A stretch of 35,595 nt of DNA from Clostridia bacterium (GTDB lineage Bacteria > Bacillota > Clostridia > Oscillospirales > CAG-272), in contig JAFQGP010000070.1 of assembly GCA_017415485.1 (NCBI GenBank), positions 1 to 35,595 of the forward strand. Reading direction: 5' to 3'. The position numbers and the translations under genes were made by a program. Below, piece by piece: positions 449 to 30,152 of this stretch (position 1 is its first letter; each line of letters starts with the position of its first letter). The notes under the pieces were generated by a model that was not told the DNA's origin, searched no databases, and saw nothing but the letters and a program-made list of their open reading frames with translations.

Positions 449-2974
449 TTACTCGGACTTCTTGTATTCGGTAGCGAGGTCGCCGTTGTTCTGAGAAACA
501 AAGGCAGTCCACTCATCATCGGTGTAGTTAACTTCCATATATCTGATGCCGCCGAAGCCCATGAAGGTGTGCTCGTCCTCAGAGAAGTAAGAGAACTTAG
601 CGCCGAGGAAGGATCCGCCGCCGTCTGCGATAAGCATTACGGAACGGGATTCCTTAATGGTGAGCTCCTCAAGAGCGGAGAGGATCATAAGTCTTGCTTC
701 GGTGGGAGCAAAACCTTCGCCCCAGTTGTAGGTCTTGGGCTGATTCTCGGTACCTGCAAGGCCGTTGAGGCAGAAGTACCAGTTCTGAACGCTCATGGTG
801 ATGGTCTCGCCAGCGCCCTCATAATCGCCTGCGGGCATTGTGAGAGTCATATCGATAGCGGAGGTATCCCAGTACATATGGTAGTTGAGGGAGTCATCGG
901 GGTTAACGAATGCGCCAACGATGTCGAAGGGGTTGAATGCGTTACCGGAGAAGCCGTAACCGAAACCGATCTGGGTTGCGCCGGAACGGAAAGCATCTGC
1001 CCATGCGTTACCTGCGGATGCATCGAATACAATGTCGATCTTATCCTGGAGAGCGGTGCCCTCGGTAAGGCCGTCGATGATGCCCTGGAGATAATCGCAT
1101 CTGAATCTCTGCTTGTCGTTATCTACGGAAGAACCGTAAACGATGGTGATGTTCTTGGAAGGATCGTAGCCGTACTTAGCGGGATCTGCATTGAGGATAT
1201 CAATAGCAGCCTTCATCTTTTCCTTAGCAAGAGTGGGGTTGTAACCGGTGAGGGAGTCATAAGCCTCGTCAAGTGCAAGACCTGTGAGGTCGCCGGAGGA
1301 CCACTTGCCGTCATCGCCCTGGGTGAAGCCATAAGCGCGGAGGATACCCTCTTTTGCAAGGGTGGTGTTACGGTACTGACCGCCGTCAGCGAGCTCGGGA
1401 GAGTTCTCGATATCATAGTAGTAAGCTACGTTAAGGAGACCGAAGCAAGGAACTGCGGTACCGGGCCAGATCTTCTCAACGATGTCGCTTCTGTTGAGGC
1501 CGAGGTTGAGAGCGTGTCTGAATTCCTGGATAGCAAGGATACCGTTGTTGTTCTCGCTGTTCTTAAGAACGTCGAGGTTAGAGTAAAGCTGCATACCGAA
1601 GGTACCGGTAGAGGTAGAGGTGAAGTAAACGTACTTGGAGTCGAGGTATTCGCCAACGTTCTCGGTCTGGAGAGAAGCATCGTCGGTTTCACCTGCGAGG
1701 AAGCTCATCCACTGAGTGGAGAAGTCTTCCATCTTACGGCAGTATACGGATGTGATGTTGTACTGGTTCTTGTACTGCTCCATGTTCCAACCGTACCAGT
1801 TCTCGTTCTTTACGAGCTTGTAGTGAGAGCCTGCCTCAAACTCAGCGAGCTTGTAGGGACCCCAGCTTGCGGTGGTCTCGAGGGAGGAGTTATAGTTAGA
1901 GGTCCAAAGAGTTGCGCCGGGTGCGGGAGCGATCTTGGAAGCCTCGTACTTGGTCTTGTGTACGAGCGGGAGTCCGGACATGTAGTAGGGAGCCCAAACG
2001 GAGAGGCTGCCGTCTTCCTTAAGGAAGGAGTATGCCTTATCAAGGCAAACAACGATAGCGTTCTCTTCTTCGATAGCGTATACGCCAACGTCTTCCCACT
2101 TAACGTCACGGTTGGTGTTTACAACGTAGATAGCTGCGTCGTAACCGGTTCCGGGCTCGAGGTAAGCACCGTAGTTCTCATAAAGGAACTTACCGGAAGC
2201 AGAGTCGGAAGCATCAGCATTGCTGTAAACGGTATCGTCAGTGATCTTGACCCACTCAGGGCACTCGTTGCCGTTAGCATCCTTGTAACCCTGTGTGCCC
2301 CACATGTTCCAGATGTTAACCCAGAGCTCCTGACCTGCGTCGAGAGCTGCCTTAACGGATGCATAGCCCTGACCGCCGATGGTCTCATATGTACCTTCCT
2401 GATTCTGGAAGAAGTAGATCTTGGAGTTCTTTACCATGAGGGTATCATAGTAGGTGTTAGCGCGGAAGTTCATGAATGCGGGGTCGAGGAGCTGCTGCAT
2501 AGAGTACTCGAAGTCAGCAGCGGTGATGGATGTGCCGTCATCCCACTTGAGATCATCGCGAAGGGTGATCTTCCAAGCATAGCCGCCCTCTGCCTTCTGA
2601 GCATCGGTGTAGCCCCACTTAGCGTCAACCGAGGAGGTTACGTCCTCGAGCTTGGTAGCTGCGGAATAGTTGGTGGTATAAGCACCGGGAACGATGCCTT
2701 CCTTGTTGATAGAGCCGTCCTTGTTGAACTTCTTATCATCTTCGAACTTATAGTCATAGTCGAAGAAGGAAGAACCGATGTAGCTCATGATCTGAGTATC
2801 GTTGTTGTCAGCGTAGGTGAATTCGTTCCAGTTGCTGGGCATTGTTGCTGTGTAGGTGTTGTACTGAGCCTGCTTGAAAGTAGCCGGTGTTACGGGCTGG
2901 CAAGAAGAAAGAGTACCAACAGCCATGATCAGGCACAGAGCCAATGCAAGCACGGATGTGAGTTTCTTGTTCAT
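449..2974 (-). CDS. Extracellular solute-binding lipoprotein, family 5 (oligopeptide type), large form
   Basis: Predicted peptide- or nickel-type ABC transporter substrate-binding lipoprotein, anchored outside the membrane. The start is at 2974, where GGAGG sits 7-8 nt upstream; an in-frame ATG further upstream is part of the Shine-Dalgarno itself. The product is 841 aa. Residues 1-24 are a lipoprotein signal (two Lys, hydrophobic core, lipobox L-S-S-C) with Cys25 as the lipidation site. The body has SBP_bac_5 features, including the W-K-I-T-L-R-D-D-L-K-W-D-D-G stretch. It is much longer than the usual 500-600 aa for the family. No permease or ATPase gene is adjacent and it is followed by a terminator, so it is a single-gene unit. 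Codon use is strongly biased, which suggests high expression. The ligand cannot be read from sequence. Confidence 0.9.
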   Translation of the reverse strand: MNKKLTSVLALALCLIMAVGTLSSCQPVTPATFKQAQYNTYTATMPSNWNEFTYADNNDTQIMSYIGSSFFDYDYKFEDDKKFNKDGSINKEGIVPGAYTTNYSAATKLEDVTSSVDAKWGYTDAQKAEGGYAWKITLRDDLKWDDGTSITAADFEYSMQQLLDPAFMNFRANTYYDTLMVKNSKIYFFQNQEGTYETIGGQGYASVKAALDAGQELWVNIWNMWGTQGYKDANGNECPEWVKITDDTVYSNADASDSASGKFLYENYGAYLEPGTGYDAAIYVVNTNRDVKWEDVGVYAIEEENAIVVCLDKAYSFLKEDGSLSVWAPYYMSGLPLVHKTKYEASKIAPAPGATLWTSNYNSSLETTASWGPYKLAEFEAGSHYKLVKNENWYGWNMEQYKNQYNITSVYCRKMEDFSTQWMSFLAGETDDASLQTENVGEYLDSKYVYFTSTSTGTFGMQLYSNLDVLKNSENNNGILAIQEFRHALNLGLNRSDIVEKIWPGTAVPCFGLLNVAYYYDIENSPELADGGQYRNTTLAKEGILRAYGFTQGDDGKWSSGDLTGLALDEAYDSLTGYNPTLAKEKMKAAIDILNADPAKYGYDPSKNITIVYGSSVDNDKQRFRCDYLQGIIDGLTEGTALQDKIDIVFDASAGNAWADAFRSGATQIGFGYGFSGNAFNPFDIVGAFVNPDDSLNYHMYWDTSAIDMTLTMPAGDYEGAGETITMSVQNWYFCLNGLAGTENQPKTYNWGEGFAPTEARLMILSALEELTIKESRSVMLIADGGGSFLGAKFSYFSEDEHTFMGFGGIRYMEVNYTDDEWTAFVSQNNGDLATEYKKSE

Positions 2975-3033
2975 AAAGATTTCCTCCATAAATATTTTTT
3001 CATTTTGTAATGTATCATTATTCGGAAACAACT

Positions 3034-3377: not shown

Positions 3378-3650
3378 TCATAAACGCAGGGATGCGGAAT
3401 AGTACGCGAATATCTTCACTTTCAGAGAGTTGCCGGTCGGTGCAAGGCATGGTGGGGTTTTGGCGGAACTCACCGCGGAGCGGTTGCCGTGAAGATAACG
3501 ATAGCGGCAGACGGGTGCTCCCGTTACAGGGCAAGGATGTGTCAGCATCTGAAGTGCATTCCCCCGGGAATGAAAAAGAGTGGTACCGCGGAAACGGTTT
3601 TGGCGTTTTCGTCTCTTTGGATCAACAAAGGGACGGGAGCGTTTTTTTGT
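3378..3650 (+). ncRNA. T-box leader, probable tRNA-Leu sensor (CUC specifier)
   Basis: Tandem marks of a T-box riboswitch are visible: AGUA-type 5' specifier loop (3401-3404), AGAGAG bulge motif (3424-3429), a distal stem TGCC/GGCA (3431-3434, 3446-3449) with a GGUCGGUG-like loop, stem II TTGCCG/CGGCAG (3484-3489, 3505-3510), stem III ACGGG/CCCGT (3511-3524), and the T-box sequence TGGTACCGCG (3581-3590), followed by a terminator. The specifier is read as CUC at 3469-3471. It is followed by A, five bases and GAG, which is the spacing in the Bacillus subtilis glyQS leader (GGC, A, five bases, GAG). By the family rule, uncharged tRNA pairs with the specifier and the T-box bulge and prevents termination. 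Leucine shortage should therefore switch on the genes at 3703-9843. Confidence 0.9.
3603..3649 (+). terminator. T-box regulated terminator (Leu unit)
   Basis: A roughly 16-bp stem with several G-U pairs (CGTTTTCGTCTCTTTG against CAAAGGGACGGGAGCG) and loop GATCAA is followed by a run of seven T. The 5' arm follows the T-box sequence at 3581-3590, as needed for the competing antiterminator. Confidence 0.9.
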
Positions 3651-3702
3651 TGAATTTCTTCCGTTTTATTATTATATACCTTTTGAAAGGGGCTTTCAAA
3701 AA

Positions 3703-5091
3703 ATGAAAAAGATCAATATTTCCGACATCACACTTAAAAAGCTTTCCGCGAACCGCGCGGTATCCCTGCTGTTCCGCGAAAAATCCGCCATTGCAAATTG
3801 CGCCGATCGACTCGGTGCCGATGCCGTGGAGCTCCCCGCAGTCAAAAGCCTTCGGGAAGATTCCATTATATATAAGACCATCGCAAAAAACATACACAAC
3901 GCCGTGCTTGCAATCCCCGGCGGCTCGGAAGCGGACGAAGTCGAAGCGGCTTGGGAATGCATCAAGGATGCAAGATCCCCCCGCCTTCAGATAGAGCTTC
4001 CCGTTTCCACCATTCAAATGGAATATTCCTACCACGTCAAGCAGGCGAAGATGCTCGAAAAGATCGGTGAGCTTGTAAGCGCGGCGAAAGCACTTTGCTC
4101 CGACGTTGAATTCTCCGCAATCGACGCAACAAGAGCGGACGATGATTTCCTTATCGCAGCGGCACGCGAAGCAGAGGCGAAGGGCGCGGATATCATCACT
4201 CTTTGCGATTGCGCGGGTGCTTCGACCCCCGATCAGATCGCGGATATGGTCGCCCGTGTCAAGGCAGCCGTTTCGGTGCCCGTATACGTCGAGCTTTCCG
4301 ACCGCATCAATATGGCAGTTGCCTCCGCATTCGCCGCGATCAAGGCGGGCGCTGACGGACTCAAGTGCGCTATGGTCGGCAAGGATATTCTTCTGACGGG
4401 TGAAATTTCGGACGCCGTGAACACCTGCGGCGCGCAGATCGGCGCGGAGCTGGGGCTCAACAACACCATTATTCACGCAAGCATTGAGGATATGGTTGCA
4501 AGCATCAACCACGAGGCTTACGAGACTGAGGAAGCGGTGAGCGAGAAGAAAAAGATCCTTCTTGACTCCGATTCCTCGATGGCACAGGTATCCGCTGCCG
4601 CTTCTCTTCTCGGCTACGAGCTCTCGGATTCCGACGTCGGCAACGTATACAAGTCTCTCAAGCAGGTCTGCGACAAGAAGGGTGCCGTCGGCGCGAAGGA
4701 ATTTGAGGCTTTGATCGCAAGCTCGGCTATGCAGGCGCCCTCGACATATCATTTTGAGACATATACCACCACAAGCAGCAATCTTTCGAGCGCGATGACA
4801 CAGATCACCCTGAAATGCGACGGCGAGATCATTTGCGGCGTCAGCGCGGGCGACGGACCGATCGATTCCGCCTTCCGCGCCATCGAGCAGTGCATCGGTC
4901 ATCACTATGAGCTTGACGACTATCAGGTACAGTCGGTCACCGAAGGAAAGGAAGCTCTCGGCTCCGCGCTTGTAAGACTCCGCTCGGGCGGAAAGCTCTA
5001 TTCGGGCAACGGCACTTCAACCGATATCGTTGCGGCAAGCATCAGGGCGTTTATAAACGCGCTCAACAAGATAGTATTTGAGGAGGATTAA
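3703..5091 (+). CDS. Isopropylmalate-synthase-like protein with a degenerate catalytic site and an intact LeuA-type regulatory domain
   Basis: A 462-aa relative of 2-isopropylmalate synthase (HMGL-like TIM barrel, about residues 1-280, then a LeuA dimerisation/leucine-binding domain, about 350-460). The start at 3703 has GAAAGGGG upstream and lies 54 nt past the T-box terminator. The barrel lacks the family's catalytic residues. The usual D-T-T-L-R-D is D-I-T-L-K-K (Lys12, Lys13 in place of Arg and metal-binding Asp). The Glu of F-S-x-E-D-A is Ile140. The metal-binding H-x-H-N-D is E-L-S-D-R (197-201). The regulatory domain keeps G-D-G-P-I-D (383-388) and S-T-D-I-V-A-A-S (439-446). Normal condensation of acetyl-CoA with a 2-oxo acid is therefore unlikely. 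It may sense leucine, act as a scaffold or have a different chemistry. It is first gene of the Leu T-box operon, 3 bp before the next gene. Confidence 0.8.
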   Translation: MKKINISDITLKKLSANRAVSLLFREKSAIANCADRLGADAVELPAVKSLREDSIIYKTIAKNIHNAVLAIPGGSEADEVEAAWECIKDARSPRLQIELPVSTIQMEYSYHVKQAKMLEKIGELVSAAKALCSDVEFSAIDATRADDDFLIAAAREAEAKGADIITLCDCAGASTPDQIADMVARVKAAVSVPVYVELSDRINMAVASAFAAIKAGADGLKCAMVGKDILLTGEISDAVNTCGAQIGAELGLNNTIIHASIEDMVASINHEAYETEEAVSEKKKILLDSDSSMAQVSAAASLLGYELSDSDVGNVYKSLKQVCDKKGAVGAKEFEALIASSAMQAPSTYHFETYTTTSSNLSSAMTQITLKCDGEIICGVSAGDGPIDSAFRAIEQCIGHHYELDDYQVQSVTEGKEALGSALVRLRSGGKLYSGNGTSTDIVAASIRAFINALNKIVFEED

Positions 5092-5094
5092 AAT

Positions 5095-7554
5095 ATGAAG
5101 ATCGTATTTTCAACCAAGAACGTAAGCCGTGCTTCCTTTCTTGACACCTGCCGTTTTGCATTTGACTACGGCTTTGAGGGATTTGAAATATACGATGCCG
5201 TAAAGGAGCGTAACGGACATCACGACAGCATCCTGCGCCGCGACCGCACTGCGGATGCCAAAAGAAAGCTTGTCAACAGAAATCTCGCGATCTCGGCTCT
5301 CAGAATGCCCTTCCCCGTTGAAAGTGACGAGGTAAGCGCCGAGCTTGCAGCTAAATACGTTGATATGGCTGCCTTTGCCGGCATCGACAATGTTATAGTA
5401 TGTATCGAAAGCTTCACCTCCTTTGAAGCCCTTGACGAAAAGCTTGCAGGGGCGATCAAGCGCGCGGAAAACGCAGACGTCAATATCCTTTTTGAAACTA
5501 TCGGCTATCTTTCGAACACGGAAAACGTGCTCGGAATAATCAATCATTTTGCATCGGCGGCTGTCGGAGCATCCTGGAACGTTCGCGGAACTTATTTCGG
5601 CGCGGGCGAGACGGCAGAGGCGACGATCAAGACCCTCGGTGCTTACATCAAATACGTTCGTCTCGGCGACATGAAGGACGGCAGGACCGTTCTTATCGGC
5701 GAGGGAGACCTTGAGGTCGGCAAGTTGCTCGGCGCGCTTTCCTCGCTTAACTACGACGGCTTCGTTTGCGCCGCCTGGAACGAGGAGATTGACGATGCGG
5801 ACATCGTTCTGACTCATTTTACAAATTATATTTCCTCTCTTGCGCGCAACAAGAAGTCCTTTGACCGCACATATTACAATCGCGCAAAGACCGGAACCTT
5901 CGTCTGGAAAAAGTACGAGGTCATCGAGGCGACCTTCTCGGACGTTCTTGACACGATGGTGGAACGCTACCCCGACCAATACGCCTTCAAGTACCCCACG
6001 CTTGATTACACAAGGACCTACGAGCAATTCCGCCGCGACGTTGACGAATGCGCCGCCGCGCTCATCTCGCTCGGTGTAAAGGCGGGCGATCACGTTGCAG
6101 TCTGGGCGACAAACGTTCCGCAGTGGTTCATCACCTTCTGGGCAACCACCAAGATCGGTGCTGTTCTCGTCACCGTCAACACTGCTTACAAGATCCACGA
6201 GATTGAGTATCTGCTCAGACAGTCGGATACACACACCCTCGTTATGATCGAATACTGCAAGGATATAAACTACAAATCTATCATAGAGGAGCTCTGCCCC
6301 GAGCTCAAAAATCTCAAGCCGGGCACTCCCCTCTATTCAAAGAACCTCCCCTTCCTGCGCAACGTTGTAACCGTTGGTTTTAATATGGAAGGATGCCTTG
6401 ATTGGGAGCAGATGCTCGCACGTGCTTCTCTCGTTCCGCGCGAGGAGGTACGCAGACGCGCCTCCCTCGTCAAGCCCGACGACGTTTGCAATATGCAGTA
6501 CACCTCGGGTACGACAGGCTTCCCGAAGGGAGTTATGCTGACTCACCGCAACATAGTCAACAACGGCAAGACCATCGGCGACAGAATGGATCTTTCCACC
6601 GCCGACCGTATGATGATCCAGGTTCCGATGTTCCATTGCTTCGGAATGGTCCTTTCGATGACCTCGATGATGACTCACGGCGGAACTCTCTGCCCCATTC
6701 CCTACTTCTCGCCCAAATCCTCGCTCGCCTGCGTAAATGACGAGCATATCACCTGCTTCAACGGCGTTCCGACAATGTTCATCGCAATGTTCAATCACGC
6801 GGATTTTGCGAAAACGGACTTTTCTTATATGAGAACGGGCATTATGGCGGGCGCAAACTGCCCCGCGGATCTGATGCGCCGCGCGTCTGTCGAGATGAAT
6901 ATGCGCGAGATCATCTCCGTCTACGGTCAGACCGAGGCTTCGCCCGGATGCACCATGGGCGAGGTCAACGAGGACCTTGACCACCGCGTTGAGACTGTCG
7001 GAAGTGCCTTTCCCGGCATCGAATGCAAGATCATAGATCCCGAAACCGGCGAAGAACTCCCCGACGGGGAAAGCGGCGAATTCGTCGCCCGCGGCTTCAA
7101 TATTATGAAGGGCTACTACAAAATGCCCGAGGCTACCGCGCAGACCATCGATGCGGAGGGCTGGCTCCATTCGGGCGACATCTGCATGAGAACTCCCGAC
7201 GGCTATTATAAGGTAACGGGCAGACTCAAGGATATGATCATCCGCGGCGGCGAGAACCTTTACCCCCGCGAGATAGAGGAATTTTATCTCACAAACCCCA
7301 AGATCCGTGACGTTCAGGTCGTCGGCGTGCCCGACGAGACATATGGCGAGGAATGCTGCGCGTGGATCATTCTTCACAAGGGTGAAAGTGCAGACGAAGC
7401 CGAGATGCGCGCATACGGCAACGCCTCGATCGCAAAGCACAAGGTTCCGAGATACTTTATCTTTACCGATTCGTTCCCGATGAACGCGGCGGGCAAGATA
7501 CTCAAATACAAGATGCGCGAGGACTCCCTCGAGCTGCTCGGTCTGAAAAAGTGA
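5095..7554 (+). CDS. Fusion: sugar-phosphate-isomerase-like TIM barrel plus AMP-forming acyl-CoA ligase
   Basis: An 819-aa two-domain protein. Residues 1-250 resemble the xylose isomerase-like TIM barrel (AP endonuclease 2 family): G-F-E-G-F-E near 27-31, a conserved Glu in I-L-F-E-T (131-135), and G-E-G-D-L (202-206). The usual His of the V-H-x-K-D motif is Arg189 (V-R-L-G-D), so metal binding may be changed. Residues 270-819 are an acyl-adenylate/CoA ligase: T-S-G-T-T-G-F-P-K-G (470-479), Y-G-Q-T-E (610-614), S-G-D (693-695), G-R-L-K-D (709-713) and the catalytic Lys801 in A-G-K-I-L-K. The expected reaction is carboxylic acid + ATP + CoA to acyl-CoA + AMP + PPi. The acid is unknown; the leucine T-box suggests a leucine-linked acid such as isovalerate (inference). 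GAGGAGG lies 8 nt before the ATG, and the stop overlaps the next reading frame. Confidence 0.85.
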   Translation: MKIVFSTKNVSRASFLDTCRFAFDYGFEGFEIYDAVKERNGHHDSILRRDRTADAKRKLVNRNLAISALRMPFPVESDEVSAELAAKYVDMAAFAGIDNVIVCIESFTSFEALDEKLAGAIKRAENADVNILFETIGYLSNTENVLGIINHFASAAVGASWNVRGTYFGAGETAEATIKTLGAYIKYVRLGDMKDGRTVLIGEGDLEVGKLLGALSSLNYDGFVCAAWNEEIDDADIVLTHFTNYISSLARNKKSFDRTYYNRAKTGTFVWKKYEVIEATFSDVLDTMVERYPDQYAFKYPTLDYTRTYEQFRRDVDECAAALISLGVKAGDHVAVWATNVPQWFITFWATTKIGAVLVTVNTAYKIHEIEYLLRQSDTHTLVMIEYCKDINYKSIIEELCPELKNLKPGTPLYSKNLPFLRNVVTVGFNMEGCLDWEQMLARASLVPREEVRRRASLVKPDDVCNMQYTSGTTGFPKGVMLTHRNIVNNGKTIGDRMDLSTADRMMIQVPMFHCFGMVLSMTSMMTHGGTLCPIPYFSPKSSLACVNDEHITCFNGVPTMFIAMFNHADFAKTDFSYMRTGIMAGANCPADLMRRASVEMNMREIISVYGQTEASPGCTMGEVNEDLDHRVETVGSAFPGIECKIIDPETGEELPDGESGEFVARGFNIMKGYYKMPEATAQTIDAEGWLHSGDICMRTPDGYYKVTGRLKDMIIRGGENLYPREIEEFYLTNPKIRDVQVVGVPDETYGEECCAWIILHKGESADEAEMRAYGNASIAKHKVPRYFIFTDSFPMNAAGKILKYKMREDSLELLGLKK

Positions 7555-7562
7555 GAAGCATA

Positions 7563-8363
7563 ATGAAAAAATACAGAATAATCGACTCACATTGCCACAT
7601 CTATCCCGACAAGATCGCGCAAAAGGCATCGGATGCGACCGCAAATTTTTACGAGCTTCCGCCAAGCCTTGACGGCAGGATATCCACCCTGCTCGAGCAC
7701 GGCGAAAAAGCGGGGATCGACCATTTTATCGTGCAATCCGTCGCAACGACTCCAAAGCAGGTATCAAGCATCAACAGATTCATTGCGGCATCGGTTGCCG
7801 AAAGCGGCGGCAGATTCACGGGGCTCGGCACTCTCCACCCCGACAGCGAGGATATGGCGGCAGACGTTGAAGAAATCATCAGCCTCGGATTGAGGGGAGT
7901 AAAGCTCCACCCGGATATTCAGAAGGTCAAGCTTGACGACTACCGTATGCTTAAGATGTACGAGCTTTGCGAGGGCAGACTGCCCATCCTCATCCACACG
8001 GGCGATAAACGCTATGATCACTCAAACCCCAACCGTTTGCTGCCGATACTTGACATTTACAAGAATCTGACCGTCATCGGCGCACATTTCGGCGGATGGT
8101 CTATCTGGGAGGAGGCTTGGAAGGAGCTGGCGGGGCGCGAAAACTTCTACGTTGACTGCTCCTCATCGCTCTATGCCATCTCCCCGGAAACAGCAAAGGA
8201 GCTCATCCACGCTTACGGCTCCGACCGCGTCCTTTTCGGCACGGACTATCCTCTTTGGACGCCGGAGAGCGAGATCGAAAGATTCATGAAGCTTGATCTC
8301 ACCGAGAAAGAGCGCGAGGATATACTTTACAACAACACCGCCAAGCTGTTCGGTATAAACTGA
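7563..8363 (+). CDS. Amidohydrolase-2 family metal-dependent hydrolase
   Basis: A 266-aa TIM-barrel hydrolase or decarboxylase of the amidohydrolase-related family (relatives of ACMS decarboxylase and isoorotate decarboxylase). Visible metal and active-site elements are D-S-H-C-H (His10, His12), K-L-H-P, L-I-H-T-G-D, the A-H-F-G-G histidine, and F-G-T-D-Y-P with the catalytic Asp near the C-terminus. The ATG at 7563 is preferred. A GTG at 7551, overlapping the previous stop (GTGA), would add four residues and is possible through translational coupling. The reaction on this substrate cannot be inferred. It may remove a side product or decarboxylate an intermediate made by the neighbouring ligase. 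Confidence 0.85.
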   Translation: MKKYRIIDSHCHIYPDKIAQKASDATANFYELPPSLDGRISTLLEHGEKAGIDHFIVQSVATTPKQVSSINRFIAASVAESGGRFTGLGTLHPDSEDMAADVEEIISLGLRGVKLHPDIQKVKLDDYRMLKMYELCEGRLPILIHTGDKRYDHSNPNRLLPILDIYKNLTVIGAHFGGWSIWEEAWKELAGRENFYVDCSSSLYAISPETAKELIHAYGSDRVLFGTDYPLWTPESEIERFMKLDLTEKEREDILYNNTAKLFGIN

Positions 8364-8403: not shown

Positions 8404-9843
8404 ATGAAAAAGACTTACGTAACCTCTATGCCGAATCATATCGGTGCGTTCCTCAAAGCCAGCCGTTGCTTTTGCGAGCTCGGAATAAACATAACTCGCG
8501 TCAGCTATAACAAGGCAGTCGATTCACATAAGCTGTTTATCGACGCCGAAGGCACCGAGGAACAGTTGAAAAAAGCCGACATCGAACTTGAAAAGATCGG
8601 ATATCTGCAAGACAGCGTCAAGGGAACGAGCGTTGTGCTGATAGAATTCCGCCTGGCGGACGTTCCCGGAAGCGTTACCGATGTGCTCACACTCATCAAT
8701 GATTTCAATTTCAATATATCCTATATCAGCTCCCAGGAAAACGGCTCGGATTATCAATATTTCAAAATGGGGCTCTACGTTGAGGATACGCAAAAAATCG
8801 CCGAATTTTTAAAAGAAGCAGAAAAGCTGTGCAAGGTTCGGGTCATTGATTACAACAGCTCAAAAAAGGTCTATGACAACAGCATCTTTTACAGCACCTA
8901 CGTTATGGGCCTGACAAAAGCCACCGGGCTTTCGGATGACATCGGGCGCGAGCTCTTGGTTCACGTGAATCTTGCAATGCAAACACTCGACGAAAACGGT
9001 CTCTCGCCCTACCGCACTTTCGACAGCATCAGCAAATTTGCGGAATTGCTCGGCGCGGGCAAGGGCAGATCCTTCGAGCCGAGGATAAGTTCTCACAAAA
9101 TAACCGACAACACCGAGATAATCCTCATCGAACCGCCCTGCGGAAGCAATACTATGATAATCGCGAGCCGCGGCAAGTACCTTTTCGTTGACAGCGGATA
9201 TGCATGCTACAAAGATGAAATGCTCGAGCTGTTCCATAAGCTCATCCCCGATTTTGACAGTATTGAAAAAACGGTCCTCATCACCCATGCCGACGTCGAC
9301 CATTGCGGCCTTTTGCCCTTGTTCGACAAAATCATAGCAGGGCACAAAACCGCACGCTGTCTCGAAAACGAATTTCTCGGAAAGAACGGCTACCGCGATG
9401 AAAATCCTCTGCACCGCCCCTATATCAATATTTGCAAAATGTTGACCTCATATAAGGCAGTCGATCCGAATAAGATCGAGGCTATGTGGAATAATAACGA
9501 CGAGCTGACCGAACCGCTTACACAGATCGGATTTTTCGATTATGAGGAGCTCCATTTCGAGGTATACGAAGGCAAGGGCGGACATCTGCCGGGTGAGATC
9601 GTGCTGATCGATTACACTCATCACCTTGCTTTCACGGGCGATATCTATATCAATATGCGCGGAATGACCAAGGAGCAGGCGGAGTATAACCAATACGCCC
9701 CCATCCTTATGACTTCGGTGGACACGGATCCCAAGCTGTGTGCAGAGGAACGCAAGGCTATCCTCGGCCGACTCGGTGTCGGGCAGTGGCAGATCTTCGG
9801 TGCTCACGGATTCAAAAAGGACTACTCGGTCAATTTTCAGTAA
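8404..9843 (+). CDS. ACT-domain / metallo-beta-lactamase-fold fusion protein
   Basis: A 479-aa protein with two tandem ACT-like segments (about residues 1-70 and 75-150; the second contains L-A-D-V-P-G-S, the typical ACT ligand loop). A linker follows, then an MBL-fold hydrolase domain from about 228 to 479. MBL metal ligands are seen as T-H-A-D-V-D-H (294-300; the middle His of H-x-H-x-D-H is Asp), G-G-H-L-P-G (392-397), T-G-D (411-413) and G-A-H-G (466-469). ACT domains usually bind amino acids and control the enzyme they are attached to, so leucine or a relative may gate the hydrolase. A thioesterase-like role on acyl-CoA is one possibility, but this is inference. Last gene of the Leu T-box unit, 40 bp after the amidohydrolase; no terminator is seen before the next promoter. 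Confidence 0.8.
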   Translation: MKKTYVTSMPNHIGAFLKASRCFCELGINITRVSYNKAVDSHKLFIDAEGTEEQLKKADIELEKIGYLQDSVKGTSVVLIEFRLADVPGSVTDVLTLINDFNFNISYISSQENGSDYQYFKMGLYVEDTQKIAEFLKEAEKLCKVRVIDYNSSKKVYDNSIFYSTYVMGLTKATGLSDDIGRELLVHVNLAMQTLDENGLSPYRTFDSISKFAELLGAGKGRSFEPRISSHKITDNTEIILIEPPCGSNTMIIASRGKYLFVDSGYACYKDEMLELFHKLIPDFDSIEKTVLITHADVDHCGLLPLFDKIIAGHKTARCLENEFLGKNGYRDENPLHRPYINICKMLTSYKAVDPNKIEAMWNNNDELTEPLTQIGFFDYEELHFEVYEGKGGHLPGEIVLIDYTHHLAFTGDIYINMRGMTKEQAEYNQYAPILMTSVDTDPKLCAEERKAILGRLGVGQWQIFGAHGFKKDYSVNFQ

Positions 9844-9936: not shown

Positions 9937-10217
9937 AAATTTGAATATCACAAAAAACGACTGCGATGAAGACGGTCGGTGCGCAAGGCTTGCAGAGAGT
10001 TGTCGGTAGGTGTAAGACAACAGCGGAACGCCCCAATGACTATCACTTCTGAGTCGAAGGACCGAACGGCGAAAGCCCAGTAGACTCCTTCCGTAATGCT
10101 GCGTAAAGGCAAAGGACTTGTCAGAGTCCGGAAAGTGACGGAATCTTTTCCGTAATTTGAGTGGTACCGCGGGTTAATAACTCGTCTCAAAGGTTTCTTT
10201 TGAGGCGAGTTTTTTGT
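9937..10217 (+). ncRNA. T-box leader, probable tRNA-Ile sensor (AUC specifier)
   Basis: Stem I base CGACT/AGTCG (9958-9962 with 10052-10056), AGAGAG motif (9994-9999), distal helix GTTGTC/GACAAC (9999-10004 with 10016-10021) around a GGUAGGUG-like loop, and the T-box sequence TGGTACCGCG (10162-10171). The specifier is read as AUC at 10042-10044, followed by A, five bases and GAG, the same spacing as in the leader at 3378. AUC indicates isoleucine. The one-base-shifted alternatives (UAU, UCA) fit the spacing less well. The leader should raise expression of the gene at 10262 when tRNA-Ile is uncharged. Confidence 0.88.
10179..10216 (+). terminator. T-box regulated terminator (Ile unit)
   Basis: A stem of about 12 bp (ACTCGTCTCAAA with TTTGAGGCGAGT, one wobble) is followed by TTTTTTG. 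It sits 7 nt past the T-box sequence and 45 nt before the start codon at 10262. Confidence 0.9.
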
Positions 10218-10261: not shown

Positions 10262-12562
10262 ATGGATTACAGTTTGAAAGAAGTTGCAGGCAGAATAAAG
10301 GACCTGCGCGAAGCAAAGGGATTCACACCGGCAGAGCTTGCAAAGCTTACCGGCGTATCGCTTGAGGACTATCTCGTTCTCGAAAAGGGTGAGACCGATT
10401 TCAGCTTCACCTTCATTTACAAATGCGCAAAAGCCTGCGGAGTCGAGGTCGTTGACCTTCTTGAGGGACGAAGCTCGACCCTCACCTCTTTCGCCATCAC
10501 CCGCCGCGGCGAGGGTCTTAAGATCCTCAAGCAGCACGGAGTTGAATATAACAACCTCGCGCCCAAATTCAAAGAAAAGCTCGCAGAGCCCTTCCTTGTC
10601 AAGTTCCCCTATCTTCCCGAGGAACAGAATGCTCCCATAAAGCTCAACTCGCATAACGGACAGGAATTTGACGTTATCGTCAAGGGCTCCTTAAAAGTTC
10701 AGGTCGGAAACCACGTTGATATCCTGAACGAGGGTGACTCGATATTCTATAATTCCCTCATCCCCCACGGTATGATCGCAGTCAGCGAGGGAGGATGCGA
10801 ATTCCACGCCGTAGTCCTCAACCCGCAGGACGGTCAGGTCAGCGAGGAATACCCCGAGGTTCCCTTCACCCACAAGGAGGCGGTCGAAAAGGAAGAAAGC
10901 ACCGCTACGGTTGCCGACAACTTCATCACTTCCACCTATGACGAAGAAGGCGTCTTCAACGGGATCTCCTTCAAAAACGACGATAAATTCAATTTCGCCT
11001 TCGACTGCGTTGACGAGATCGCAAAAAAGAGCCCCGACAAGCTTGCAATGCTTTGGGTAGCAAACGACAAGAGCGAGCGCAGATTCACCTTTAGCGATAT
11101 GAAGAAATATTCGGCAAAGACAGCCAATTATTTCGAATCGCTCGGCATCAAGAAGGGCGACACCGTAATGCTCGTGCTCAAGCGTCACTATCAGTTCTGG
11201 TTCTGTATGCTTGCGCTTCACAAGATCGGCGCGATCGCGATCCCTGCGACCAATCAGCTCGTCGAGCACGATTTCGAATACAGATACAAGGCTGCGGGAG
11301 TCAAGGCTATCGTCTGCACCGCGGACGGCGAGGTTTCGACCGAAGCCGAAAAGGCTGCAGCGGGCTTCCCCGGAATGCTCAAGATCCTGGTTGGAGGTAA
11401 AAAAGAGGGTTGGAACGACTTCAATGTTGAAATGGAGCGCTTCAGCACCCACTATTACCGCACCGAAAGCACTCCCTGCGGCAGCGACCCGATGCTTATG
11501 CTCTTCACCTCGGGCACCACGGGATATCCCCGCATAGCAACGCACTCCTACAAATACGCACTCGGTCATTATCCCACGGCAAAGCATTGGCACAACGTCG
11601 ATCCGAACGGTCTGCACTTCACGATCTCGGATACCGGCTGGGGCAAGGCTCTTTGGGGCAAGCTTTACGGTCAGTGGCTCTGCGAGGCGGCTACCTTCAC
11701 CTATGACTTCGACAGATTCCACTCCGAGGACATTCTGCCGATGTTCGCAAAATACAATATCACCACCTTCTGCGCACCGCCCACTATGTACCGCTTCTTC
11801 ATAAAGGAGGATCTCTCGAAATACGACCTTTCCTCGATCAAGTACGCGACAACGGCAGGCGAGGCGCTCAACCCCGAGGTCTTCAACCGCTTCAAGGAAG
11901 CAACCGGACTGACCATCATGGAAGGCTTCGGACAGACCGAGACCACCCTTTCGATCGCAAACTTTGTCGGCTCGACTCCCAAGATCGGATCTATGGGCAA
12001 GCCCAGCCCGCTTTACGACGTTGTTGTTCTTGATCCCGACGGAAACGAGTGCAACACGGGTGACACGGGTGAGATCTGCATCCGCACCAAGGATCACGTT
12101 CCCTGCGGACTCTTCATCGGCTACTATCTCGATGAAGAAAAGACTCACGAGGCTTGGCACGACGGCTACTATCACACCGGCGACCAGGCAACGATGGACG
12201 AGGACGGCTACCTCTGGTACGTCGGTCGTATCGACGACGTCATCAAGTCCTCCGGCTACCGCATCGGCCCGTTCGAGATCGAAAGCGTCATCATGGAGCT
12301 TCCCTACGTTCTTGAATGCGCGGTCACTCCCGTTCCCGACGAGGTACGCGGTCAGATCGTCAAGGCAACGATCGTCCTTGTAAAGGGCAAGGAAGGCAAC
12401 GACGCGCTCAAGAAGGAGATCCAGGATTACGTCAAGACCCACACCGCTCCCTATAAGTACCCCAGAATCGTCGAATTCGTAGACGAGCTTCCCAAGACCA
12501 TCAGCGGCAAGGTAAGACGTGTCGAGATCCGCAAAAATGACCTTGCAAAACTGAATAAATAA
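10262..12562 (+). CDS. HTH-cupin-acyl-CoA ligase (ACSM/butyryl-CoA synthetase-like)
   Basis: A 766-aa three-part protein. Residues 5-70 are an XRE-type helix-turn-helix, about 100-190 a cupin ligand-binding barrel (F-D-V-I-V-K-G and I-P-H-G-M), and 220-766 an AMP-forming acyl-CoA ligase. Ligase motifs are T-S-G-T-T-G (416-421), G-F-G-Q-T-E (555-560), H-T-G-D (638-641), G-R-I-D-D-V-I-K-S-S-G-Y-R (655-667) and the acyl-adenylation Lys750 in S-G-K. The ligase is closest in type to the medium-chain/butyrate family that activates short and branched acids. With an isoleucine-type T-box in front, 2-methylbutyrate is a reasonable substrate guess (inference). The HTH-cupin part resembles stand-alone regulators of the SutR/PuuR type, so the enzyme may also bind DNA. 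Start: ATG after GAAGGAG. It is followed by a strong terminator. Confidence 0.87.
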   Translation: MDYSLKEVAGRIKDLREAKGFTPAELAKLTGVSLEDYLVLEKGETDFSFTFIYKCAKACGVEVVDLLEGRSSTLTSFAITRRGEGLKILKQHGVEYNNLAPKFKEKLAEPFLVKFPYLPEEQNAPIKLNSHNGQEFDVIVKGSLKVQVGNHVDILNEGDSIFYNSLIPHGMIAVSEGGCEFHAVVLNPQDGQVSEEYPEVPFTHKEAVEKEESTATVADNFITSTYDEEGVFNGISFKNDDKFNFAFDCVDEIAKKSPDKLAMLWVANDKSERRFTFSDMKKYSAKTANYFESLGIKKGDTVMLVLKRHYQFWFCMLALHKIGAIAIPATNQLVEHDFEYRYKAAGVKAIVCTADGEVSTEAEKAAAGFPGMLKILVGGKKEGWNDFNVEMERFSTHYYRTESTPCGSDPMLMLFTSGTTGYPRIATHSYKYALGHYPTAKHWHNVDPNGLHFTISDTGWGKALWGKLYGQWLCEAATFTYDFDRFHSEDILPMFAKYNITTFCAPPTMYRFFIKEDLSKYDLSSIKYATTAGEALNPEVFNRFKEATGLTIMEGFGQTETTLSIANFVGSTPKIGSMGKPSPLYDVVVLDPDGNECNTGDTGEICIRTKDHVPCGLFIGYYLDEEKTHEAWHDGYYHTGDQATMDEDGYLWYVGRIDDVIKSSGYRIGPFEIESVIMELPYVLECAVTPVPDEVRGQIVKATIVLVKGKEGNDALKKEIQDYVKTHTAPYKYPRIVEFVDELPKTISGKVRRVEIRKNDLAKLNK

Positions 12563-12570
12563 CAATTATA

Positions 12571-26951: not shown

Positions 26952-26991
26952 CGCATCTTTCTGTCCACTGTCCACTAACCACTGTTCACTT
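26952..26991 (-). repeat. Right arm of a perfect 40-bp inverted repeat
   Basis: Reverse complement of 26747-26786 over all 40 bp. Its outer end supplies the last Lys codon and the TGA stop of the minus-strand hydrogenase gene (26986-26988). With the left arm it bounds a 245-bp element with an AT-rich 165-bp centre. Confidence 0.95.
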
Positions 26992-28401
26992 GATTTCCGC
27001 ATCGGAAATCTTCCTGTCCGCCGCTTCCTTGCCGTATTTATCGACCTCGGTCTTGTTCTTCTCGCCGTGGGTCAGGCAACCGGCGCCGCCGATGCAGCCG
27101 CCGATGCACGCCATTCCCTCGATGAAATTGCCTTCAAGGAGATTCTTGTTCTTCTTGAGAAGTGCCACGCGGCAAGCCTCGATTCCGTCGCAGATGACGG
27201 GCTTGAGATCGAATTCGATATTCTGCTCCGCCATTGCAGCCGCAACAGCCTCGGAAAGACCGCCAGAGCGGGCGAAGATGCGTCCGTAATAGGATGCGTC
27301 GTCGAGTCCCGATTCCTCGAGCAGAGTGATGTCGATGTCGCGGCTGTCGAAGAGAGCCTGAAGCTCCTCGAAGGTGATGACTGAGTCAACGTAGGGCTTG
27401 ACGTCCTCGCGCTGAGCCTCGCCCTTCTTTGCCGTGCAGGGGCCGACGAAGATGACCTTTGCATCCGCATCGCGCTCCTTGATGACCTTCGCGAGAAGTG
27501 CCATCGGCGAGGGATTATGCGAGATGAACTCCTTCAGATTCGGGAAAGCGGAGTTTATGTAGGTCACGAAAGCGGGGCAGCAGGAGCTTGTGAGGAATCC
27601 TTTTTCCGCAAGCTCGCGCGACTCGGCAAGCGCGACAAGATCGGCGCCGAGGGCGGCTTCGATGACCTTGTCAAATCCGAGCTTGCGCAAACCCGTGATG
27701 ACCTGACCGTTCTTCGCATAGGTGAACTGACTTGCGATCGAGGGGGCAACCATGGCATAGACCTTGCCCGAGCCCTCGCGCTTGCTCTTTTTGATGATCT
27801 CGATGACGTCAACGATGAAGGACTTATCCGAGATCGCACCGAAGGGGCACTGATAAACGCAGGCGCCGCAACGGATGCACTTGTTGTTGTCGATAAGAGC
27901 CGCCTTCTGCTCGTTCATCGAAATTGCCTTGACCTTGCAGGCATTCTGGCAGGGACGGGTACGCTTTACGATAGCGGTGTAGGGGCAGACCTTCGCGCAG
28001 GCGCCGCACTCGACGCACTTTGATTTGTCGATGTGCGCGACGTGGTTTTCGTCGAAGGACAGCGCGCCCTTCTTACAAACGTCCTCGCAACGGTGGGCAA
28101 GACAGCCTCGGCAGGCGTTTGTGACCTCATATCCGCTGACGGGACACTCATCGCAAGCGATCTCGATGACCTCGATAACGTTGGGATTCTGTCTGTCGCC
28201 GCCGATGGCAAGCTTGACACGCTCGCCGAGGATCGCGCGCTCCTTGTATACACAGCAACGCATCGTCGGCTCGTTTCCGGGAACGATGGTCTTGGGAATG
28301 TCGATGCAGTTCTCAAGAAGCGTGTCGTTCCAGGCAAGGCGAGCCACCTCGCGGAGTACCTTATATTTCAGATGTTGAACTTTTGTATCAAATTTACGCA
28401 T
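26986..28401 (-). CDS. [FeFe] hydrogenase, group B (monomeric, ferredoxin-type clusters)
   Basis: A 471-aa hydrogenase. N-terminal Cys motifs hold [4Fe-4S] clusters (C-V-E-C-G-A-C-A-K-V-C-P and C-I-R-C-G-A-C-V-Y-Q-C-P), and the H-cluster domain follows. Its three signatures are T-S-S-C-C-P-A-F-V, F-V-G-P-C-T-A-K-K-G-E and E-G-M-A-C-I-G-G-C-I-G-G-A-G. The T-S-C-C-P-A-F variant, instead of T-S-C-C-P-G-W, is typical of group B. It is expected to exchange electrons between ferredoxin and protons, in either direction. It lies downstream of hydA with a 53-bp gap containing a strong hairpin (28420-28446). It is last of the redox cluster, and its stop lies in the right inverted-repeat arm. Confidence 0.9.
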   Translation of the reverse strand: MRKFDTKVQHLKYKVLREVARLAWNDTLLENCIDIPKTIVPGNEPTMRCCVYKERAILGERVKLAIGGDRQNPNVIEVIEIACDECPVSGYEVTNACRGCLAHRCEDVCKKGALSFDENHVAHIDKSKCVECGACAKVCPYTAIVKRTRPCQNACKVKAISMNEQKAALIDNNKCIRCGACVYQCPFGAISDKSFIVDVIEIIKKSKREGSGKVYAMVAPSIASQFTYAKNGQVITGLRKLGFDKVIEAALGADLVALAESRELAEKGFLTSSCCPAFVTYINSAFPNLKEFISHNPSPMALLAKVIKERDADAKVIFVGPCTAKKGEAQREDVKPYVDSVITFEELQALFDSRDIDITLLEESGLDDASYYGRIFARSGGLSEAVAAAMAEQNIEFDLKPVICDGIEACRVALLKKNKNLLEGNFIEGMACIGGCIGGAGCLTHGEKNKTEVDKYGKEAADRKISDAEIK

Positions 28402-28419
28402 TTTTACACCTTATATTTT

Positions 28420-28446
28420 GAATGCGGCAGCAAAGCTACCGCATTC
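28420..28446 (-). other. Intercistronic hairpin between hydA and the group-B hydrogenase
   Basis: A 12-bp stem (GAATGCGGCAGC with its near-complement, one wobble) with an AAA loop on the plus strand, TTT in the mRNA. No U-run follows on the minus strand, so it is better read as an mRNA stability or processing element than as a terminator. Confidence 0.55.
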
Positions 28447-28454
28447 ATTATGAA

Positions 28455-30149
28455 TTAGTCTTCGTGTTTTGCGGTATAGTGAACGTGGAGAAGCTCGTGA
28501 GCGCGGTCCTTGATGATCTTCTTGTAAACAGAGTTTACAATGGGATTTTCCTGCGATCGACGAATGCTGAGCATTCTGTCTGCTTCATAAAGTCCCTTGC
28601 TTCTTGCTTCCTTGGCGTTGCTGAAGTAGGGCTGACCGCCGCCGTTTACACAGCCGCCGGGACAAGCCATGATCTCGATGAAATCGAAATGCTCGCCTGC
28701 GGATGCGCGGAGAAGAACTCTCTCGGCGTTGCCAAGTCCGCTTACAACTGCGATGTGGAGCTGACGGTCACCGTAGGGCAGGTAGAATTCCTTGATGCCT
28801 TCCATACCGCGCTGACCTGCGTTTGCCGCCTCGAGGAGACCCGCGCGCGACTTGTTTTCGGAAACGCGGCGAAGAACTGCCTCGGTTACGCCTCCGGTAA
28901 CGCCGAAGATAACGCCCGCACCAGAAACGGTGCCGAAGGGCATATCAACTGCCTCGGGCTCGAGCTCGTCGAATACAAGACCCGACTCCTTGATCATACG
29001 GATGAGCTCCTGGGTGGTGATGACCGCATCAACGTCGGGCTCGCCGTTCTTGGTGAACTCGGGGCGCGAAGCCTCGAACTTCTTTGCGGTACAGGGCATA
29101 ATTGCAACGTGGAACATCTTCTGCTCGGCATCCATGTTCTGATCCTTGACAAGAGATCCCATCATCTGCATAGGAGAACGGCAGGTGGAGATGTTCTCGA
29201 GGAATTCGGGATGCTTCTTCTCGGCATACTGGATCCAACCGGGACAGCAGGAGGTGATGAGCGGGAGCTTGCCGCCGTTTTCGAGGCGGTCGATGAACTC
29301 CGCGGTCTCCTCCATGACCGTGAGGTCGGCGGAGAGAGTGGTGTCATAGATCTCGTCAAAGCCCATACGGCGGAGCGCGGCAACGATCTTGCCCATTACG
29401 TTCTCACCTTCACGGCACTTGAGCTCCTTGCCGATCGCAACACGGACTGCGGGCGCGATCTGCACGCTTGTTCTTACGTTCGGGTCGGAGATAGCGTCCC
29501 AAACGCACTGGATGTTATTCTTGACTACGATAGCACCCGTGGGGCAAACTGCCGCACACTGACCGCATCCGACGCAGGGGGATTCTGCGAGGGGCTTGCC
29601 GAAGGCGGTGGAGATGACCATCTTCGAGCCGCGGTGTGCGAAATCGATCGCGCCGACGTTCTGGATCTCGTTACAAACTCTTACGCAGTCGCCGCAGAGG
29701 ATGCACTTGCCCGCGTCGCGGACGATGCAAACAGACGAGGTATCGTCGTTCTTTGTGGACTTTGCGCGGTTGGGGAAGCGAACGCCCTCAATGTTGAAGC
29801 GCATTGCAAGCTCCTGGAGCTTACAGTTCTGGTTGTTCTCGCAAACCGTGCAATCGCGGCAATGGTTTGCAAGAAGAAGCTCGAGGATGTTCTTGCGGTA
29901 ACGGCGAAGACGCTCGGTGTTTGTCTTGATCTCCATTCCCGCGCGGGGAGGAGTCGAGCAAGCTGCCTCGATGCCGCCCCACTTGTTCTCGACCATACAC
30001 ATACGGCACGCGCCGTAGATCGAAAGATCGGAGTGGTAGCAGAATGTGGGCATCTTGATGCCGATCTTCTGGCAAAGCTCAAGAATGTTCTTCTCACCGT
30101 TTATTTCAACCGGAATACCGTCTATTGTCATATACTGTTTTTCGCTCAT
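28455..30149 (-). CDS. hydA: [FeFe] hydrogenase catalytic subunit HydA (bifurcating, group A)
   Basis: A 564-aa catalytic subunit of a trimeric hydrogenase. From the N-terminus: a [2Fe-2S] domain (C-x11-C-R-M-C with Y-G-A-C-R-M-C), a His/Cys-ligated [4Fe-4S] (N-H-C-R-D-C-T-V-C), two ferredoxin-type [4Fe-4S] sites (C-I-L-C-G-D-C and C-V-G-C-G-Q-C-A-A-V-C-P), then the H-cluster domain with T-S-C-C-P-G-W-I, M-P-C-T-A-K-K-F-E and M-A-C-P-G-G-C-V-N-G-G-G-Q-P. In the HydABC complex it couples oxidation of ferredoxin and NADH to H2 formation, or the reverse. AAGGAGG lies in the end of hydB, 3 bp gap. Confidence 0.95.
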   Translation of the reverse strand: MSEKQYMTIDGIPVEINGEKNILELCQKIGIKMPTFCYHSDLSIYGACRMCMVENKWGGIEAACSTPPRAGMEIKTNTERLRRYRKNILELLLANHCRDCTVCENNQNCKLQELAMRFNIEGVRFPNRAKSTKNDDTSSVCIVRDAGKCILCGDCVRVCNEIQNVGAIDFAHRGSKMVISTAFGKPLAESPCVGCGQCAAVCPTGAIVVKNNIQCVWDAISDPNVRTSVQIAPAVRVAIGKELKCREGENVMGKIVAALRRMGFDEIYDTTLSADLTVMEETAEFIDRLENGGKLPLITSCCPGWIQYAEKKHPEFLENISTCRSPMQMMGSLVKDQNMDAEQKMFHVAIMPCTAKKFEASRPEFTKNGEPDVDAVITTQELIRMIKESGLVFDELEPEAVDMPFGTVSGAGVIFGVTGGVTEAVLRRVSENKSRAGLLEAANAGQRGMEGIKEFYLPYGDRQLHIAVVSGLGNAERVLLRASAGEHFDFIEIMACPGGCVNGGGQPYFSNAKEARSKGLYEADRMLSIRRSQENPIVNSVYKKIIKDRAHELLHVHYTAKHED

Positions 30150-30152
30150 GAT

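Follow-up and report, generated by a model that had tools for sequence, protein, structure and literature searches.

What is a 2-isopropylmalate synthase (LeuA) homologue retained for when its catalytic residues have been replaced and its leucine-regulatory domain has not? The question is raised by a 462-amino-acid protein, here named PLeuA, that is encoded at positions 3703–5091 (+) of a 35,595-nt stretch of DNA from a Clostridia bacterium (Oscillospirales; CAG-272; GCA_017415485.1, contig JAFQGP010000070.1, positions 1 to 35,595, forward strand); this whole stretch is referred to as the window. The original prediction described PLeuA as a pseudoenzyme retained as a leucine sensor or scaffold, which may modulate the ligase fusion encoded immediately downstream, here named TIMlig. 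Our preferred reading, to which we assign a probability of roughly 0.6 on the basis of sequence comparison, is that PLeuA derives from a 2-isopropylmalate synthase and now serves as a non-catalytic, leucine-sensing regulatory subunit of TIMlig, a presumed isovalerate ligase.

Gene presence and absence were scored in 98 relatives and in a wider set of 70 further genomes carrying PLeuA. Distribution was surveyed in 394 genomes of the order and, with a strict threshold, in 397 genomes drawn from the phylum outside the order. Because many of these genomes are draft MAGs and the genome of the window itself is 87% complete, single absences mean little and it is the pattern over many genomes that carries the argument.

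Lost catalytic residues and conserved frame of PLeuA

The PLeuA frame runs for 462 residues without an internal stop, as originally claimed, and an AAAGGGG ribosome-binding site lies upstream of its ATG. Two Pfam domains were recognized well above their cut-offs: a degenerate HMGL-like TIM barrel (residues 4–226, positions 3712–4380, +; PF00682, 104.7 bits against 29) and a LeuA_dimer leucine-regulatory domain (residues 331–457, positions 4693–5073, +; PF08502, 107.9 bits against 24.9). The alignment set PLeuA against 10 canonical LeuA proteins encoded by other members of the order; active-site and leucine-site residues have been listed for M. tuberculosis LeuA (PMC2704214). The motif regions align clearly, and every replacement named in the original prediction was found at the residue number given there: K12 and K13 stand in place of the RDGEQ Arg and Asp, I140 in place of the FSxED Glu, and E197 and S199 in place of the two metal-binding His of HxHND. 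D8, the first Asp, is retained among the metal ligands that were examined. The losses also go further than had been described, as 103 of 103 PLeuA homologues have gaps at the GERAGN-loop (GxGERxG) Glu and Arg and at the FAHESGIHQxG stretch, and the KHSG motif is gone from nearly all of them. The RDGEQ Arg-Asp, FSxED Glu and HxHND His are likewise absent across the 103, with few single-residue exceptions. PLeuA falls below the catalytic-synthase cut-offs of TIGR00973 (leuA_bact; 221.4 bits against 598.7) and NF002086 (245.2 against 532); the isopropylmalate-synthase equivalogs are all far below cut-off, and no NCBI equivalog model fits the protein, of which only the domains are recognized.

The same catalytic losses are present in approximately 100 full-length homologues at 39%–85% identity, which excludes chance or sequencing error as the cause; a frameshift, assembly or misalignment artefact was ruled out by this family-wide pattern. 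PLeuA occurs in 36 of the 98 relatives and, with full-length frames, in 83 of the 394 genomes of the order, spread over 45 genera. It is rare outside the order, where one of the 397 genomes carries it at the strict threshold, and no relatives were found on viral contigs. In a tree, PLeuA is monophyletic beside canonical LeuA, with modest support (0.75). PLeuA is also present in Spirochaetales MAGs (L103, L104, L106 and L107), with TIMlig downstream where the contig allows; these copies form one clade nested within the Clostridia family tree, which looks like the result of horizontal transfer and was likely acquired that way.

Among homologues, median dN/dS was 0.074 for the barrel and 0.013 for the LeuA_dimer domain (14 close pairs), values that are rough because dS is approximately 0.8. 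They indicate that PLeuA is under strong purifying selection and that the leucine domain is its most constrained part. At every distance, homologues resemble the window PLeuA more closely in the dimer domain than in the barrel, with identities of 0.87 and 0.70, respectively, for close homologues and of 0.59 and 0.36 for far ones. Family-wide loss of the catalytic residues, together with selection to keep the protein, agrees with the proposed pseudoenzyme status.

The classical leucine route is also largely missing from genomes with PLeuA. LeuA (TIGR00973 or NF002991) was found in 52 of the 98 relatives, and none of the 98 has both LeuA and PLeuA (p ∼5e-18, uncorrected for relatedness). LeuB over cut-off was found in none of the 36 PLeuA genomes among the relatives and in six of the 70 further ones. 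One of these six (G635) carries duplicate PLeuA and LeuB, so it may be a mixed assembly. By these gene counts, the exclusion between PLeuA and LeuB is strong but not absolute. Ketol-acid reductoisomerase is present in only six of the 36 PLeuA relatives, and VorB is over cut-off in 29 of them, with the copy in one genome (G000) cut by a contig end. Judging from its gene content, the gut bacterium from which the window comes seems to have lost the usual leucine route. Separately, ten relatives have a LeuA at or near the TIGR00973 cut-off and no LeuB over cut-off, and most of these also carry TIMlig or its ligase part.

Could PLeuA nevertheless still be an isopropylmalate or related synthase whose catalytic residues have migrated? 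It matches PF00682 well and is the only such match found in its 87%-complete genome, but the clear alignment of the motif regions and the physical absence of the GERAGN loop and the FAHESGIHQ stretch make this very improbable, and with LeuB missing the product of a synthase would lead nowhere. Motifs, model cut-offs and missing LeuB together led us to reject the active-synthase reading. The opposite extreme, a decaying leuA relic without function, would fit the loss of catalytic residues and of a subdomain and the missing isopropylmalate pathway, but full-length frames recur across the order with a conserved leader and gene pair. We give a relic almost no weight, as dN/dS far below 1 and the many intact homologues contradict a pseudogene.

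The leucine domain and its leader

Leucine-pocket positions were mapped onto PLeuA from M. tuberculosis LeuA, with the conserved GDGP motif as anchor. For the stretches between the listed pocket residues, we used what we take to be the M. tuberculosis sequence, which agrees with the published residue numbers. The pocket maps to G383, D384, G385, P386, I387, D388, L404, Y407, S411, A418 and G420, and at these positions PLeuA has the same residues as canonical LeuA of the order or similar ones. The claim that the LeuA-domain motifs are preserved thus holds for both the domain score and the pocket.

The PLeuA gene is preceded by a T-box leader at 3380–3619 (+) (Rfam RF00230, 129.2 bits, gathering threshold 93), with the leucine specifier CUC at 3469–3471 and an intrinsic terminator at 3606–3647 (+) composed of a hairpin (3606–3639; −17.6 kcal/mol) and a run of T. 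The leader had been predicted to be a leucine T-box, and its score, specifier and terminator all agree with this. The homologous leaders of PLeuA-TIMlig loci have a leucine specifier (CTC or CTG) in 81 of 83 parsed cases; the two that read as non-leucine codons are probable parsing slips. A kept pocket, a domain that is the most constrained part of the protein and a leucine T-box ahead of the gene are what would be expected if PLeuA were kept for its leucine domain, as first proposed.

The predicted structure of PLeuA has a mean pLDDT of 79.6, mostly high in the barrel, and a pTM of 0.58. Its barrel fits the isopropylmalate synthase 3EWB with an rmsd of 1.9 Å over 262 residues. Overlay on leucine-bound LeuA (3FIG), a check suggested with the original prediction, gave a divided result: residues 1–458 align, but the rmsd is 14.8 Å, too large to confirm the placement of the domains. 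Positions at which PLeuA homologues share a residue unlike that of LeuA are concentrated in the dimer domain (22, compared with 10 in the rest of the protein; p ∼1e-6), a pattern that fits a new interaction surface on that domain.

These data bear on the main rival to our reading, in which the PLeuA barrel is not dead but has evolved another activity, independent of metal or with other ligands, that acts on acyl-CoA or oxoacid intermediates, while leucine remains an allosteric effector. Purifying selection on the barrel (omega ∼0.07) would suit such an activity, and D8, S102, E107, Y108, D141, R144 and D169 are kept on or near its catalytic face, which leaves room for one. However, nearly all of these face residues are common to LeuA and may be structural, the newly conserved positions cluster in the dimer domain rather than in the barrel, and the metal-binding His, the GERAGN loop and the acetyl-CoA groove subdomain are gone. 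The pathway described below needs no further enzyme either, and we consider a new barrel activity unlikely.

Pairing of PLeuA with TIMlig

TIMlig (5095–7554, +) joins a xylose-isomerase-like TIM barrel (residues 20–229) to an AMP-forming acyl-CoA ligase (residues 288–801), both recognized by Pfam. As the original prediction stated, it starts 3 bp after PLeuA, and the GAGGAGG ahead of its ATG sits within the last PLeuA codons. Where both genes could be read, TIMlig is practically always the next gene and has the same orientation; the gap was measured in 61 loci and lies between −4 and +9 bp in 60 of them, usually at 1 bp. This gene order argues for the proposed tie between PLeuA and the downstream fusion. 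The few PLeuA loci without an adjacent TIMlig are attributed to contig ends or to ORF-calling failures caused by long antisense frames. Very long antisense open frames lie opposite real genes at 3622–4905 (−), 569–3010 (+) and 10691–12565 (−), and frames of this kind caused PLeuA to be missed by a longest-ORF gene caller in several loci.

The ligase motif residues that we checked are intact in 102–103 of 103 TIMlig copies, and the fused barrel has a different history. The 15 full-length TIMligs that lack a PLeuA partner group in a single clade (support 1.0), and all of them keep the putative metal-site residues E-D-H-H-E. Among PLeuA-linked TIMligs, E-D-H-H-E is kept in only three of 88 and lost in 85, most commonly to E-N-G-R-A, which is also the pattern of the N-terminal, PF01261-type barrel of the window TIMlig (region 5095–5934), so that its putative metal site is lost. 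The TIMlig barrel has thus decayed mainly where PLeuA is present, and the three exceptions suggest that linkage to PLeuA preceded the decay. A T-box also precedes most of the unlinked copies, and its specifier is CTC where it was read by eye. Because TIMlig exists without PLeuA, and usually under a T-box, the ligase does not need PLeuA everywhere. The predicted structure of the TIM domain has low confidence (mean pLDDT 61.6) and was left aside, and no PDB relative of this domain was found by sequence.

Further downstream lie an Amidohydro_2 protein (7551–8363, +; Pfam), which neighborhood comparison identified as a common next gene, and a protein with an ACT domain and a metallo-beta-lactamase fold (8404–9843, +; Pfam), which belongs to the leucine cluster and is found close to PLeuA in several relatives as well. 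The corresponding region of relatives encodes VorB, VorA and VorC (2-oxoacid:ferredoxin oxidoreductase), IlvE (branched-chain transaminase), one or two HTH-cupin-ligases and an NTPase resembling ParA/CbiA. Three genomes of the window's genus have the order PLeuA-TIMlig-IlvE-NTPase-VorB-VorA-VorC-HTH/cupin-ligase on one strand, and a fourth (G007) shows the same order from TIMlig onward. The NTPase is a P-loop protein of ∼220 aa situated between the transaminase or ligases and VorBAC (L080, 4994–5650; L166–L173). In the window's own genome, VorB-VorA-VorC-IlvE is located on a short contig (C154). Elsewhere in the window, iron-only hydrogenase-like and NuoF-like (Complex1_51K) proteins are encoded at 26986–32039 (−), possibly a bifurcating hydrogenase cluster.

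This neighborhood admits a second target for PLeuA, which could sense leucine and act on VorABC, IlvE or the ACT-domain protein, or serve as a free leucine-binding scaffold. The Vor and IlvE genes do share the cluster in many relatives, but only TIMlig is directly adjacent and tightly spaced in practically every locus, Vor and IlvE lie elsewhere in many genomes, the window's own included, and it is the TIMlig barrel that decays with PLeuA present. A target other than TIMlig is hence improbable in our estimation, and we continue with PLeuA as a regulatory subunit of TIMlig.

Branched-chain acid ligases and related systems

A second T-box leader is located at 9954–10192 (+) (RF00230, 93.9 bits, gathering threshold 93), with a conserved isoleucine specifier, AUC, at about 10042–10044. 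It is followed by an HTH-cupin-acyl-CoA ligase (10262–12562, +), which Pfam, NCBIfam (MbcS-like) and the specifier mark as a presumed 2-methylbutyrate ligase. Relatives carry a second HTH-cupin-ligase copy under a valine T-box; overall, the leader specifiers of these ligases are isoleucine in 36, valine in 17 and other in one. One locus (L168) encodes the HTH-cupin part on its own, in a gene adjoining that of the ligase. MbcS, the nearest NCBIfam family, activates 2-methylbutyrate and isobutyrate and hardly isovalerate (PMC10026030), and this substrate range matches the isoleucine and valine T-boxes, pointing to isoleucine from 2-methylbutyrate, valine from isobutyrate and TIMlig for leucine from isovalerate. 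The MbcS-like ligases and TIMlig would then complete a presumed pathway from the three branched-chain acids to leucine, isoleucine and valine.

Most PLeuA carriers probably make leucine from isovalerate. In the mechanism we propose, TIMlig would convert isovalerate to isovaleryl-CoA, VorABC would carboxylate this reductively to 2-oxoisocaproate, and IlvE would transaminate the latter to leucine. If leucine is made by activation and carboxylation of isovalerate, the ligase is the first committed step, and PLeuA could supply the end-product control that formerly came from LeuA. Leucine would bind the LeuA_dimer domain of PLeuA, and a PLeuA-TIMlig complex would slow isovalerate activation, presumably by inhibition rather than activation; contact would be made perhaps through the remodeled dimer domain, the degenerate TIM barrel of TIMlig, or both. 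The T-box would add control at the level of transcription. More tentatively, and at slightly less than even odds, a retired biosynthetic enzyme would have been recruited as a separate feedback subunit for the enzyme that took the place of its pathway: the dead LeuA would make an isovalerate-CoA ligase subject to inhibition by leucine through an assembly of two catalytically dead TIM barrels, those of PLeuA and TIMlig, and each of the three branched-chain acid ligases in the system would be adjusted by a T-box for the corresponding amino acid. The pathway of acyl-CoA ligases, VorABC and IlvE in genomes mostly without LeuA and LeuB, and the barrel decay in the linked TIMlig clade, extend what was originally predicted.

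A literature search that covered few subscription journals returned no description of an inactive LeuA, of T-box-controlled branched-chain acid ligases or of this gene set, and no account of the regulation of isovalerate, 2-methylbutyrate or isobutyrate ligases. The locus family offers candidate genes for all three ligases, with the T-box of each pointing to a single amino acid, and suggests a way in which control by the end product survived the loss of the isopropylmalate route. A LeuA-like annotation in these genomes is not proof of leucine synthesis by the classical path.

The acid-to-amino acid route itself has long been known in the rumen (PMC7356843; PMC2812497), and for gut anaerobes, knowledge of the routes from isovalerate, 2-methylbutyrate and isobutyrate goes back to the 1960s (Allison and co-workers, as cited in PMC7356843). 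Reductive carboxylation in rumen anaerobes and methanogens shares with the system proposed here a ligase, a ferredoxin-dependent oxoacid oxidoreductase and a transaminase, all biochemically known there; here, in contrast, it is the T-box codon that assigns each of the three ligases, and the leucine branch comes with a dead LeuA. MbcS is the 2-methylbutyryl-CoA synthetase of Staphylococcus aureus, whereas the window-type ligases have added HTH and cupin domains, score below the family cut-off and, unlike MbcS, probably feed amino-acid rather than lipid synthesis.

With LeuA of the TIGR00973/PRK00915 type (M. tuberculosis, 3FIG), PLeuA shares the two-domain order, TIM-barrel fold, LeuA_dimer domain and leucine-pocket residues, and leucine T-box control by the same kind of leader is known for leuA in other bacteria (PMC2494555). 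PLeuA differs in lacking the catalytic Arg, Asp, Glu and His, in the deletion of the acetyl-CoA loop and linker subdomain I, in scoring far below every equivalog cut-off and in occurring mostly in hosts without LeuB.

HisZ, which descends from a tRNA synthetase, offers a precedent, as PLeuA would likewise be a non-catalytic protein with an end-product pocket that controls a separate first-step enzyme, and its gene is almost invariably paired with that of its presumed catalytic partner, TIMlig. HisZ is the non-catalytic regulatory subunit of the short-form ATP phosphoribosyltransferase and controls HisGS (PMC9734150); its fold and pathway are unrelated to those of PLeuA, and the complex and the inhibition have been demonstrated for HisZ and are proposed for PLeuA. 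Pseudoenzymes that act as allosteric regulators are an already known kind (PMC10211241), and among them PLeuA would, if our reading is right, show cleanly how an enzyme can persist as a sensor subunit after its own reaction has been lost.
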